Below the pieces are notes generated by a model that did no database searches, was not told the DNA's origin, and saw nothing but the letters and a program-made list of their open reading frames with translations. Positions 19,828-43,891 of a stretch of 64,000 nucleotides of DNA are shown here, in pieces; the first letter of the stretch is position 1, and each line of letters begins with the position of its first letter. Origin of the DNA: Natronorubrum sediminis (GTDB lineage: Archaea; Halobacteriota; Halobacteria; Halobacteriales; Natrialbaceae). A program made the position numbers and the translations under genes. The stretch is from assembly GCF_900108095.1 (NCBI RefSeq), contig NZ_FNWL01000002.1:664748-728747 (forward strand). The letters are read 5' to 3'.

Positions 19828-20796
19828 ATGACATTTCCATATTCTATTGATGATTTGAAGTTCGGTTTCAAAAACCCTAGATTAATGCTATGGGAAATCC
19901 ACCGAATTTTAAGTTCACCATTCCATAAACGACATAACGAACAATTTTTCGAAGAAAATGGTGAAGGAATAGATGTGATGGAGAGAGATTGGGATAACTT
20001 GATTATTTTAGATGCGTGTAGGTATGGGTTCTTTGAGGAACAAAACAACATCGATGGTAGTCTTGAACCAGTTATCTCTAAAGGAGGACACAGTTGGGAA
20101 TTTATGAAATCAAACTTTGAAGGAAGTCAATTTCATGACACTGTCTACGTGACTGCTAATCCTCATGCTCGAAAACTGCATAGTGATACGTTCTATTCAA
20201 TAAAGACCGTTCTTGACCAATGGGACAGTGAAATTGGGACAGTTCGACCTAAAGAAGTTGTGGATGCGGCTATAGAGGCTAACAATGAGTTCCCCGAAAA
20301 GCGCCTGATTGTACATTTCATGCAGCCTCATCGCCCCTATCTGGGACCAACTGCAGACCAATTGCGTGAACGCGTAAACCTAAGAGGATATGATCGCGAC
20401 CGAGGATTAGACGGACAAGATTATGAGCGTACAGGCGTCCATATGTGGCGTGCTGTGAAAAGTGGTAAAGTAAGTCTTAGTGAACTACGCCAAGCATACT
20501 CTGAAACATTAGATATTGTATTAGGAGAGGCTGATAGGTTAATCAATTCGATTGATGGCCGGAGTGTAATCACCGCAGATCATGGTGAATTGCTAGGTGA
20601 ACGTCTTCATCCATTCACTGTCCGACAATTTTCACACCCACACGGTATCCAAATGAGAGAACTTCAAACTGTACCATGGCATATCATTGAGGGAGACATT
20701 CGGAGGAAGATATCTAATGATGATCCTGTTAAAACAGAGAGATTGGGTCAAGAAACCATAAATGACCGGCTTGAGGCGTTAGGATATAAAATTTGA
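19828..20796 (+). CDS. Sulfatase/alkaline-phosphatase-superfamily-like protein on AT-rich island
   Basis: 322 residues. The motifs LIILDACRYGFF (58-69), MQPHRPYLGP (165-174), TADHGELLGE (249-258) and SHPHG (269-273) are the metal-ligand Asp/Cys-type site, substrate loop, ADHGE metal motif and a late His loop of the alkaline phosphatase/sulfatase fold. Cys64 after Asp62 may be the nucleophile or formylglycine-like residue. No signal peptide is seen. Such proteins often occur in surface-polysaccharide or glycosylation islands and may transfer or remove sulfate or phosphate groups. One sampled line of the gene has about 37% G+C against roughly 65% nearby, and its codon use is unlike its neighbours, so recent horizontal transfer is likely. 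Confidence 0.82.
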   Translation: MTFPYSIDDLKFGFKNPRLMLWEIHRILSSPFHKRHNEQFFEENGEGIDVMERDWDNLIILDACRYGFFEEQNNIDGSLEPVISKGGHSWEFMKSNFEGSQFHDTVYVTANPHARKLHSDTFYSIKTVLDQWDSEIGTVRPKEVVDAAIEANNEFPEKRLIVHFMQPHRPYLGPTADQLRERVNLRGYDRDRGLDGQDYERTGVHMWRAVKSGKVSLSELRQAYSETLDIVLGEADRLINSIDGRSVITADHGELLGERLHPFTVRQFSHPHGIQMRELQTVPWHIIEGDIRRKISNDDPVKTERLGQETINDRLEALGYKI

Positions 20797-21043
20797 ATCC
20801 GGGTGAGCTTTTTATTTGGCGTCGAATTGACGGGTGTGAGCAGAGCCATCGATTATCCTCATCGAAGAACCGTTCGATGGCGATTTCGGGACGTAAGATC
20901 GTTACAACGTTGAACGGTATGTGTTTTAAATGAACGGTAGTCCCAAAAGCGAATGCATCCAAAGAACCAAATTTCGAGTGCGTCAGAAACAGTGGGTTCA
21001 GCGAGAATGGGAAAGCCTCGAGTCGACCATCGAATCCGAGTGC
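20797..21043. other. Gene-free right flank of the AT-rich island
   Basis: Base composition returns gradually to the genomic norm across this 247-base stretch. A minus-strand open frame (20729-20962) crosses the island edge, but it has mixed composition and no family I recognise; it may be part of a decayed mobile element. No target-site duplication matching the left flank could be found by eye. Confidence 0.4.
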
Positions 21044-21262
21044 TTACGGGTCACTCGGCGGTCGGCCGGACTCCTCACGCCACGATTCGAAACTGTGTGT
21101 TTCGTCCTCGCGGAAGAAAATGCGCCAGACGAGATAGGCGGGCACGATCACCGGCAAGAGCGGCAGTGCAAGGATAACGAGAATCGCGGCCATGATGTAC
21201 CCGAACGCCGACATCTGGAAGTTCGGCCCGTAGCCCGTCGACTCGCCGACTCGTGTAGACAT
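21044..21262 (-). CDS. Small single-membrane-segment haloarchaeal protein
   Basis: 72 residues: about 18 hydrophilic residues, a long hydrophobic helix (about 19-47, IMAAILVILALPLLPVIVPA), then a cytoplasmic-type RIFFRED and acidic tail. Hydrophobic core, acidic tail and composition typical of the host indicate a real gene and not a shadow. Conserved small proteins of this design are common in haloarchaea, without known role. It is the first recognisable host gene after the AT-rich island. Confidence 0.7.
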   Translation of the reverse strand: MSTRVGESTGYGPNFQMSAFGYIMAAILVILALPLLPVIVPAYLVWRIFFREDETHSFESWREESGRPPSDP

Positions 21263-21405
21263 ACGTTACAGTTCGAACCAGTCGCTATTCGGTCTTGCGG
21301 TCTCGAGACCCCGTGCTATCGACCGGGAACCTACCGAAGCCTCCCGTTCGCGTACTCCGCTCTCCCCACACACTCCGCTCTCTCCGCACACTCTGCTCAC
21401 TTCGT

Positions 21406-22179
21406 TCAATCCTCGAGCACTGTAGCCGAATCGTCCTGTGGTCGATAGTTCAACTCGAGCATTGTCTCCGTCAGCGAGAGGAACCGCTCGGCGTTGTTCG
21501 AGATTCCGTGTGCGGTCAGGGGCGAGGACTCGAGGGTCGTCGTCGCCGCGGCGTCCATCAGCCGTTGACAGTCGTCGGGGCTGAGCCACATCGCTCGCGC
21601 GTAGCGTTCGCCCGAGGCGTCCCGGTCGGCGAGTTCGTCCTCGAGTTCGTCTTCGGAGAGCAACCAGCCAATTCGCAGGTTGATCACGTCGAGTCCGTGG
21701 CAGTTCGCGTAGTAGTGGCCCATTGCCTCGCCGAAAACCTTCGTGACGCCGTAGTACGTATCGGGATCCATCGCTTCCGCTGGTCGGACGGTTCGTGGCG
21801 AACCCACGGTGGACTCCGGACGGACGGACGACACCGTGTTCTGCATGTTCACCGCGTGGTTCGAACTCGCGAAGACGACTCGCTGGACGTCGTTCTGGAC
21901 GGCGGCTTCGAAGGCGTTGTACACTCCCTCGATGTTCGGCCCGGAGAGTGCGTCCCACTCGGCCCGCGGATCCGGATTCGCCGCGAGGTGGATCAACACG
22001 TCCTCGTCCTCGAGGGCGCCGACGAACGCCTCGCGGTTCGCGACGTCGATCGGGGTCGTTTCGAGGTCCTCACTTTCGCTGTGTGAAAACAGGCTGAGTT
22101 CGACGTCCGTGTCTTCGAAGGCCTCGATGGTCTCTCGGCCGACCCGACCTGATGCACCAGTGATGGCGATAGTCGTCAT
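21406..22179 (-). CDS. Extended short-chain dehydrogenase/epimerase (uronate or sugar dehydrogenase-like)
   Basis: 257 residues from the ATG at 22179. It has the NAD-binding ITGASGRVGRETI glycine-rich loop at 5-17, LIHLAANPDP (about 61-70), and the catalytic YYGVTK pair (Tyr/Lys at about 142-146). Extended SDRs of this length include uronate dehydrogenases and the archaeal NAD-dependent glucose-6-phosphate dehydrogenase Azf, both of which oxidise the anomeric carbon of a sugar; which applies cannot be decided here. It is transcribed divergently from an IclR regulator 120 bases away, which may control it. Confidence 0.85.
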   Translation of the reverse strand: MTTIAITGASGRVGRETIEAFEDTDVELSLFSHSESEDLETTPIDVANREAFVGALEDEDVLIHLAANPDPRAEWDALSGPNIEGVYNAFEAAVQNDVQRVVFASSNHAVNMQNTVSSVRPESTVGSPRTVRPAEAMDPDTYYGVTKVFGEAMGHYYANCHGLDVINLRIGWLLSEDELEDELADRDASGERYARAMWLSPDDCQRLMDAAATTTLESSPLTAHGISNNAERFLSLTETMLELNYRPQDDSATVLED

Positions 22180-41611: not shown

Positions 41612-41920
41612 TCAGATCCGGTTCTTCTCTTGGTTCTGAGCGCGCATGTGGGCTGCGGTGACGATCAGCGTCTTCTCTTTGCCGCGATCGTCGATCTGAA
41701 CCTTGAACGCAGCGCCTTGCTTCCCGATGACTTCGCCGGTCTGTCCGTCGAAGCGAGGGTGGAATCGACCGTCTGCCACGCTCGGGTCGATCTTCAGATG
41801 CACTTTTTCGCCTTCTTCGTACTCCTGAATCGCTCGCTGTGGCGGGGACGTTCCGCGGTCTCGAGGATCGTTTGCGAGTTTTCTCCGAGTTCCCTGACGA
41901 GGGCCATTAGAGTTCGGCAT
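41612..41920 (-). CDS. rpl21e: 50S ribosomal protein L21e
   Basis: 102 residues from the ATG at 41920 ([23 protein letters not shown]), the normal start of archaeal L21e; the upstream in-frame stretch to 41995 is not conserved. SH3-like core ([40 protein letters not shown]) is intact. First gene of the L21e-Rpo4 transcript. Confidence 0.97.
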
Positions 41921-42059
41921 AGTCGTACGACGCTCTTGATCGGTGACGGTTATAAAACGCACGTCTTTCGCCCAGAATCTGGACACCACATTCACGCGGA
42001 TCGCTCACGCGAGTGAATCCTCGAACCGACGGCGACAGCCTCGACTCGGTTCGCAATCG

Positions 42060-43055
42060 CTACGACGACGATCGGTTTGCGAGTTGGGCGCGGAAGATCG
42101 TCTCGAATCCCTCGAGGTATGCCCGAAGGTCGACACTTTTTGCGGCCGACGCGAACGTGGCTGCCGCGGCGTACTCGTCGTCCCAGCGATCGACGAAGTG
42201 TTCCTCGACGGCGGACTCACGAATCGCTGCGACGACCGAATCGACGGATGCCTCGCTCGGACGTTCCTGAATCGCTCGTAGCTGTGCGGCGTCGATGACA
42301 CCCGTCTCGAGGGCGCGGACGACGACCGCGGAGCTACAGTCACCTTCTGTGAGTTCGCGTTCCCACGTCGCGATCCAGTTGCCGATGCGCGCTAGTCGCT
42401 GGGTGCGAAACACGACGCGCCTCACGATCGAGAGGTCGTCGATGTCGAACGACGAGGCGTTCGCGAGGTCGATATCGGCGAAACAACACACCATCATGTT
42501 GTGAGCGTCGTACGTCCAGAGTTCGCGTTCCGTAGCGAGTGTTGGATACTGCGCCATCAACGCGGAGTACTCGACCGCCTGAAACGCCTGTCGAATATCG
42601 AACAAGAACAGTTCGACGAATTCCTCCGCGCGCGGGCCGTCGGAGTAGGCGTCCAGCAACGCTGACCACAACTCTTGTTGGTATTCGACGTACTCGCTTG
42701 CAACGCCCGCCCGTGTGGGATCCGCCCGTTGGTGCTCGAACGGCACTTTCAGGAGTTCTGCGACCGTCTCTCGGTCGCCGTGACACTCAGCAACATCGTC
42801 GATAACCGTGATGAACATCGTCGCGAGCACTTTCGCGTCTCGAGCAACCTGTGCCTGTTCTGGATCGACACACGAGAGTTGAAATTCGGCCGTTGACCGG
42901 GTGAACCACCGCCAGAGCGAACGATCTCGGTCACCGATTCGTTCGTCGTAGGCGTCTGCGAGTGGCTTTACGCGAGGCGATAGGGGCTGCGTTCCAGCGT
43001 CAGCGAACGGATCAGTCTCGACCCCGAGTGTGACAGAACCAGTCTCGTTATTCAT
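42060..43055 (-). CDS. Class I terpene synthase-like protein
   Basis: 331 residues from the ATG at 43055. Residues 86-90 read DDVAE, the aspartate-rich DDxxE metal motif, in the context TMFITVIDDVAE. Residues 226-234 read NWIATWERE, an NSE triad (N226, T230, E234), 140 residues further on as in bacterial terpene cyclases. R177 lies about 49 residues before it, near the pyrophosphate sensor position. All-alpha composition and length also agree. It would bind Mg2+ and ionise a prenyl diphosphate to form a cyclic terpene. No prenyltransferase or P450 gene adjoins it. An RY pair near the C-terminus is not evident. Bacterial-type class I terpene synthases are seldom reported in archaea, and the product is unknown. 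Assignment rests on motifs only. Confidence 0.75.
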   Translation of the reverse strand: MNNETGSVTLGVETDPFADAGTQPLSPRVKPLADAYDERIGDRDRSLWRWFTRSTAEFQLSCVDPEQAQVARDAKVLATMFITVIDDVAECHGDRETVAELLKVPFEHQRADPTRAGVASEYVEYQQELWSALLDAYSDGPRAEEFVELFLFDIRQAFQAVEYSALMAQYPTLATERELWTYDAHNMMVCCFADIDLANASSFDIDDLSIVRRVVFRTQRLARIGNWIATWERELTEGDCSSAVVVRALETGVIDAAQLRAIQERPSEASVDSVVAAIRESAVEEHFVDRWDDEYAAAATFASAAKSVDLRAYLEGFETIFRAQLANRSSS

Positions 43056-43077
43056 TATATGAATGTACTTTCCACTT

Positions 43078-43089
43078 GAATATATATCT
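43078..43089 (-). promoter_or_regulatory. TATA box of the terpene-synthase-like gene
   Basis: The minus strand has AGATATATATTC, about 28 bases upstream of the ATG at 43055, in an AT-rich patch. It indicates a short leader or leaderless transcript. The same patch could serve the divergent hydrolase gene at 43193, but that would leave about 80 bases of leader. Confidence 0.6.
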
Positions 43090-43192
43090 TTCACTACTCC
43101 AGTTTACTCACAAAGATGTACTCGCTGGTGAGCAGCGGTTCGAGCCCGACCAAACGGACAATCCTTTCGTTCTCGCGGTGAACGTGGATGGC

Positions 43193-43891
43193 ATGGGAAC
43201 GAACGAAGATCGCGACGCTGGCGTTCACACGCTGCCGCTTACGGTCGAGTACGGTGGTCGAACCATCACGATCACACCGACGGTCGTCGAAACCGAGCGC
43301 GGCCTCGTCCTGATCGACGTCGGACCGAGTGGCGCACTCGAGGGGCTCCGGACCCACCTCACCTCGCTCGGTTACGACCTCACGGACATCTGGCTCGTCC
43401 TCCTCACGCACCACGACGGCGATCACGCCGGCGGACTCGCAGAACTCCTCGAGCGCGTCGACGCGGTCGTCGCGACCCACCGCGAAGAAGCGCCGTACGT
43501 CCGCGGCGACCGGATGCCGATCAAGAGCGACGGCGATCGCTACCCACCGGTGCCAGTCGACCTCGAGTTGACGGACAGCGTCCGGATCCCGACGCTCGCG
43601 GGCCCGATGGAGTGTCTCGCGACACCCGGCCACACGCCGGGCCACCTCTCGATCCACCTGCCGGAGGGGAACCTCCTCATCGCCGGCGATGCGCTCGTCG
43701 CAGACGGTGACGACCCACTTTCCGGTCCGAAGCCCGAGTTCACCCCCGATATGGACCGAGCGCTCGAGTCCGTGTCACAGCTCGCAGCGCTCGAGATCGA
43801 TCACGTCGTGTGCTATCACGGTGGATACGTCGATCACGGTTCTGCACAAATACGAGAGATCGTCGACAGTCACACCGGCCACGACCGCTGA
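43193..43891 (+). CDS. Metallo-beta-lactamase-fold hydrolase
   Basis: 232 residues from the ATG at 43193; longer frames begin with TTG upstream but have no family support. The metal motif is LTHHDGDHAGG (HxDxDH variant), followed by ATPGHTPGHLS, AGDALV and a final CYHGG. This arrangement occurs in lactonase- and glyoxalase II-like members, which hydrolyse esters, lactones or thioesters. Its divergent position, about 140 bases from the terpene-synthase-like gene, may indicate shared regulation but a functional link is unproven. Confidence 0.88.
   Translation: MGTNEDRDAGVHTLPLTVEYGGRTITITPTVVETERGLVLIDVGPSGALEGLRTHLTSLGYDLTDIWLVLLTHHDGDHAGGLAELLERVDAVVATHREEAPYVRGDRMPIKSDGDRYPPVPVDLELTDSVRIPTLAGPMECLATPGHTPGHLSIHLPEGNLLIAGDALVADGDDPLSGPKPEFTPDMDRALESVSQLAALEIDHVVCYHGGYVDHGSAQIREIVDSHTGHDR

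Follow-up and report, generated by a model that had tools for sequence, protein, structure and literature searches.

We have found a family of class I terpene synthase-like proteins that is an archaeal (Halobacteriota) clade, marked by the signature NWxxTWxRE. One member is encoded in the 64,000-nucleotide stretch of DNA analyzed here (the window), which comes from a haloarchaeal genome of 3.78 Mb. We predict with good confidence that this protein is an active class I terpene synthase that acts on FPP or GGPP and belongs to a family often wired to sensors. The family is unannotated and occurs in about 3 in 10 sampled Halobacteriales genomes. If it is active, class I terpene chemistry gains a domain of life, and those members that are fused to receiver domains would be response regulators with terpene synthase output. 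The fusions bear on two questions: which processes archaeal sensors govern, and whether isoprenoids serve archaea as signals. The relevant features of the window are:

42060..43055, minus strand: class I terpene synthase-like gene, 331 amino acids (ORF call, family conservation, predicted fold)
42786..42800, minus strand: DDVAE, the Asp-rich metal motif (residues 86-90), at the C-terminus of modelled helix 65-90 (sequence, model, conservation)
42354..42380, minus strand: NWIATWERE, the NSE-type metal triad (residues 226-234), carried by helix 205-236 (sequence, model, conservation)
42387..42389, minus strand: Arg223, likely diphosphate sensor, on helix H at N226 minus 3 (conservation, likeness to Sat1646/Stt4548)
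43056..43189, no strand assigned: upstream region shared with the divergent MBL gene, with a TATA-like stretch (sequence)
43076..43891, plus strand: divergent MBL-fold hydrolase, a neighbor only (Lactamase_B, 5e-27)
41612..41995, minus strand: gene for ribosomal protein L21e, which flanks the slot on its other side (ORF, synteny; name by sequence recognition)
Beyond L21e: RNA polymerase subunit F-like, DUF655 and KsgA-like genes in turn (names by sequence recognition)

The terpene synthase ORF comprises 996 bases and runs on the minus strand from an ATG at 43055 to a stop at 42060, the coordinates that an earlier note on this DNA had given, and encodes 331 residues. Its existing annotation is "hypothetical protein". 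Translation might alternatively start at a GTG 13 codons upstream. The gene is alone in the interval between L21e and MBL, and there is no sensor or regulator among its neighbors in the window. An AT-rich, TATA-like stretch (gatatatatt, minus strand) lies ~25-35 nt before the ATG, and a TATA-like element also precedes the ATG in most relatives, which is consistent with a predicted promoter of the gene's own. The start codon lies within an inverted repeat (ATTCAT-TAT-ATGAAT, 43050-43064); the nearest relative does not preserve this repeat, which is probably a chance occurrence. Comparison with the nearest congener gave a dN/dS of ~0.2 (0.030/0.151), indicating purifying selection on the gene. 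Elsewhere in the window, GC content falls to 0.526 at positions 20001-22000, compared to ~0.62 around it, and this segment is possibly acquired DNA.

Both metal motifs are located where the earlier note had placed them, DDVAE at residues 86-90 and NWIATWERE at residues 226-234. They correspond to the two class I terpene synthase motifs, the first of which, DDxx(D/E), is located where helix D ends (D86, D87 and E90), and the second, (N,D)xxx(S,T)xxx(E,D), within helix H (the triad N226/T230/E234). Five of these residues (D86, D87, E90, N226 and E234) are invariant in an alignment of 40 members. In a wider set, the full set of metal motifs is kept in 108 of the 111 homologues covering them, and the remaining three have Asn in place of D86. 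Given this conservation in both sets and the dN/dS of the gene, the motifs are more than chance. Broken fragments (L051, L174 and L049, a C-terminal part) and the spurious L052 were left out of the alignments.

The Terpene_syn_C_2 profile (PF19086), which had been proposed as a check, gave a divided answer. The window protein scored 18.9 bits (E 0.0014; 17.6 bits in another run) and so falls below the curated cut-off of 23.7 bits, but most of the family matches the profile (38/40 and 59/73 diverse members). Two of the ten members tested singly, L048 (31.7) and L146 (26.8), exceed the cut-off; the family is therefore homologous to PF19086, though the window protein is sub-threshold. A PF19086 search of the window genome returned this gene and one chance match, and an NCBIfam search returned no model for the window protein. 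Using a profile of the family, the best PDB match was Sat1646, at an E of only 0.026 and thus suggestive, in an ungapped alignment that sets N226 on its NSE Asn (Asn223). Another profile search gave Stt4548 at E 0.35, again only suggestive, and a search with the single sequence gave nothing other than a ribosomal match, by chance.

Structure prediction gave the all-alpha class I terpenoid synthase fold. The AlphaFold2 model, built from the 40-member alignment, has a pLDDT of 93.2 and a pTM of 0.91, and in it the Asp-rich motif closes helix 65-90 and the triad lies on helix 205-236, as in known class I enzymes. The top PDB matches by Foldseek, at E 7e-6 to 6e-5, were bacterial class I terpene synthases, namely VenA and the enzymes for epi-cubenol, hydropyrene and T-muurolol. 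VIA-align scored class I synthases from plants and bacteria at Z ~20-22, among them abietadiene synthase (21.7) and LrdC (20.5), and the best single-domain match was Sat1646 (Z 21.0, rmsd 2.8 over 252 residues). Plant-type class I synthases (abietadiene, bornyl diphosphate, isoprene) have the highest Z, tied with Sat1646, and they too have an Arg at position -3 relative to the second metal motif. They differ in having an extra N-terminal beta domain, and their identity to the window protein is ~10%. The bacterial/fungal-type enzymes of PF19086, such as VenA and epi-cubenol synthase, share with the window protein the all-alpha domain and the Asp-rich and NSE motifs at normal spacing.

Sat1646 and Stt4548 are actinomycete class I diterpene synthases that form isopimaradiene (PDB 7e4n, 7e4o, 7e4m; PMC9814573). 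In addition to the fold and metal motifs, they have in common with the window protein a helix-H Arg three residues before the NSE Asn, within the local pattern RxxN(D/W)xA(S/T)xxR(E/D)..GD. Identity is, however, ~14%, and in the window protein the residue following the triad Asn is W rather than D. PMC9814573 describes no tie to signalling for the two enzymes.

The earlier note had pointed to R177 as an Arg near the position of the diphosphate sensor; we discount R177 as the sensor since this position is Arg in only 26 of 116 homologues. The canonical spacing of the bacterial sensor is 46 residues before the triad, and this helix-G slot (position 180) is variable in the family (W, E, R, V). 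R223, on the same helix as the triad, is Arg in 103 of 113 homologues, and by its conservation and by analogy with the actinomycete enzymes it is most likely the diphosphate sensor. Sat1646 Arg220 and Stt4548 Arg236 lie on helix H, three residues before the triad residues Asn223 and Asn239, respectively, whereas the bacterial enzymes reported previously have the sensor Arg on helix G (PMC9814573). The linker/effector pairs of the two enzymes are Asn182/Tyr183 in Sat1646 and Ser198/Ile199 in Stt4548 (PMC9814573). By analogy, the pair in the window protein would be H185/N186, or N186/M187 with a one-residue slip, an assignment that is uncertain by one residue.

Three polyprenyl synthases are encoded in the window genome, and no squalene-hopene/class II cyclase domain was found in it. 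Acyclic FPP or GGPP is thus a likelier substrate than copalyl diphosphate, which Sat1646 and Stt4548 take; its supply by a class II cyclase was considered and rejected, there being no such domain in the genome. It is hypothesized that the two metal sites, D86/D87/E90 (end of helix D) and N226/T230/E234 (helix H), would hold three Mg2+ ions binding the diphosphate of an acyclic substrate, most likely FPP or GGPP. R223 would then sense the diphosphate and signal to a linker/effector pair at about N186/M187, where helix G is broken. Upon departure of the diphosphate, the allylic cation would be cyclized or quenched. We consider it likely that the window protein ionizes a prenyl diphosphate, and it is a real, probably active class I terpene synthase.

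The earlier note had called bacterial-type terpene synthases seldom reported in archaea, but the gene is no rare stray, and its family proved to be widespread. Homologues occur in 41 of 149 near relatives of the source genome and in 119 of 392 Halobacteriales genomes, covering 42 of the 95 genera sampled. They are sparser in methanogen-lineage orders of the same phylum (12/150 genomes, and 7/150 in a second set, all in one genus). The most distant members, from methanogen genomes and probably of Methanosarcina type, keep DDSCD and NTxNTWxRE. These members (L117, L119-L122, L165-L167) are very divergent, have Met rather than Arg at position 223, and immediately follow a PAS kinase gene; L117, the one Methanosarcina-type member tested, is not recognized by Pfam. 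Nor does the label "bacterial-type", also used earlier, plainly apply to a family with its own NWxxTWxRE signature and no bacterial relative on plasmids. Searches of a plasmid collection found haloarchaeal members, annotated as hypothetical protein, and no bacterial relative apart from one chance Sphingosinicella match; a bacterial branch may exist on chromosomes. No family member was found on viral contigs. A search confined to the open-access literature found no archaeal class I terpene synthase. The terpene-like contexts noted by EvoMining for Natrinema and Natrialba (PMC6939163) are those of glutamate dehydrogenase copies and not of this gene. One short, divergent member (L118:8198-8965) is without both metal motifs and adjoins radical-SAM-like and methyltransferase-like genes; it is possibly a degenerate or non-catalytic relative.

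Gene neighborhoods were surveyed at 113 loci with 2,003 called genes. Outside the clade of the window gene, histidine kinases and Bat/HTH_10, FilR1-type HTH, HalOD1 and DUF7344 proteins adjoin terpene synthase far above background. Histidine-kinase ATPase genes occupy 19 of 228 direct neighbor slots, compared to 3 of 524 slots at a distance of six to eight genes. Bat-type HTH_10 genes are direct neighbors in 11 cases, with eight more two genes away and none at six to eight genes, and FilR1-type HTH genes in 13 cases, with one at six to eight genes. HalOD1 genes are likewise concentrated one and two genes from terpene synthase. By sequence cluster, a signalling gene is directly adjacent in 27-43% of clusters versus 3-6% in matched control slots (five or six genes away), figures that rest on heuristic gene calling and on domain profiles seeded from neighbors of these same genes. 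Sign-flip p values for this adjacency were 0.009, 5e-5 and 5e-5 at 24, 46 and 71 clusters, respectively, with the coarsest clustering placing 61 loci in one cluster.

Individual arrangements illustrate the association. In L102, a DUF7344-terpene synthase-FilR1 operon has ATGA start/stop overlaps at both junctions, and in L048 and its relatives terpene synthase follows HTH_10 and HalOD1 genes. Terpene synthase, HTH and HalOD1 genes lie in a row in Halorussus vallis (NZ_CP100001), and terpene synthase, PAS S-box and HalOD1 genes in Halobaculum (NZ_CP126159). The kinase gene directly before the Methanosarcina-type members is of PAS/HisKA_2 type. Many members outside the window's clade have no signalling neighbor, and large non-signalling genes adjoin L108, L149, L155, L157 and L175, which argues against a universal signalling link.

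In two members the link is within the protein. L109:7763-9277, from a 99%-complete haloarchaeal genome, is a single ORF of 505 amino acids in which a receiver (PF00072, 8e-17) and a HalX domain (PF08663, 8e-7) precede a terpene synthase that retains both metal motifs (DDLLE and NWVSTWERE). In the model of this fusion (pLDDT 83.5, pTM 0.66), an alpha/beta domain resembling a receiver is joined through a long, helical linker to the all-alpha domain. L163:1077-2486 is a 470-amino-acid receiver-terpene synthase ORF (PF00072, 3e-18) from a different taxonomic family, in a genome that is 72% complete. A PAS-HisKA-HATPase kinase gene lies beside it on the opposite strand (locus L163:28-2486). Both receivers have the acidic pocket and the LLD and KP motifs, and they are clearly related, so the fusion may be one event. 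L109 and L163, unlike the window gene, thus have the makeup of a response regulator with enzymatic output, with receiver and enzyme in one continuous ORF. The main text of the 2018 census of archaeal response regulators lists KaiC-like, BcsA and CheB among the enzymatic outputs and does not contain the word "terpene" (Galperin 2018, PMC5847659). As described there, the REC-KaiC-like, REC-BcsA and REC-CheB proteins resemble the two fusions in joining receiver and enzyme in one protein and in their narrow distribution (PMC5847659). A literature search combining terpene synthase, receiver domain and fusion found no paper. Gene order and fusions suggest that in some archaea terpene production is under the direct control of signal transduction, with the sensor and regulator partners controlling the synthase, and we consider it fairly likely that the family is generally under sensor control.

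What the regulators do can be read in more than one way. The protein may be an ordinary terpene synthase of specialized metabolism, with regulators that only control transcription, a terpenoid that is no signal, and two fusions that are local curiosities, an account that we place only slightly short of an even chance. Regulators commonly adjoin biosynthetic genes, the FilR1-type HTH, Bat/HTH_10 and DUF7344 proteins resemble transcription factors, and the window gene has no linked sensor. However, the receiver fusions put phosphorylation on the enzyme itself, and histidine kinases, beyond HTH proteins, directly adjoin the gene in several separate clusters. In addition, an unsystematic look noticed no recurrent tailoring enzyme beside the gene, contrary to a biosynthetic cluster. 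A further proposal, which we regard as tentative and somewhat doubtful, is that Halobacteriota use terpenoids as regulated signals. The terpene synthase clade would then be an output of two-component and Bat-type sensing, in places receiver-fused with phosphorylation gating catalysis, and the terpenoid would serve as a signal, either volatile or in the membrane, with linked PAS/GAF or FilR1-type proteins as its possible readers.

The strong signalling context and the receiver fusions would also suit a non-catalytic signalling domain of terpene synthase fold whose ligands are isoprenoid diphosphates or terpenoids and whose output goes to a linked kinase or HTH protein, and the divergent L118, which has neither metal motif, points the same way. 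We consider this improbable, since a pure binding domain does not need both metal sites and all the ligands are kept in 108/111 homologues.

It is very unlikely that the synthase works with the divergent MBL hydrolase, which the earlier note had suggested might act on its product. The MBL gene itself is real (plus strand), and MBL genes fill 24 neighbor slots, nearly all in the window's taxonomic family; a different MBL protein is encoded directly upstream, on the same strand, in L043-L045. Family members outside that taxonomic family, however, mostly have no MBL neighbor. Furthermore, five same-genus genomes without the terpene synthase gene retain the MBL orthologue at 76-78% identity. In four of them it lies directly beside L21e across a gap of only ~110-125 bp, i.e. 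the slot is empty, so the MBL gene is a bystander.

That the protein is instead a divergent isoprenyl diphosphate synthase, or a prenyltransferase of the squalene/phytoene type, is scarcely tenable. Such enzymes share the all-alpha superfamily, and some isoprenyl diphosphate synthases appear in the Foldseek list, but the window protein has a single Asp-rich motif and NxxxTxxxE, not a second DDxxD, at the other metal site, has no polyprenyl_synt match in Pfam, and comes from a genome with three separate polyprenyl synthases; fold and motif conservation agree with the earlier note on this point.

For the unlinked setting of the window gene, phylogeny offers an explanation. In a tree constructed by a quick method with SH-aLRT support, in which the methanogen branch is long, the Natrialbaceae clade of the window gene nests among lineages with the DUF7344-terpene synthase-FilR1-HalOD1 arrangement. 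From this nesting, the simplest account is that the window gene descends from an operon-borne ancestor and that the linked regulator was lost on arrival at the L21e-MBL site. A separate sub-branch (L127, L156 and L158) is without signalling neighbors and varies in the last part of the triad motif; one of its genomes carries two copies ~5 kb apart.
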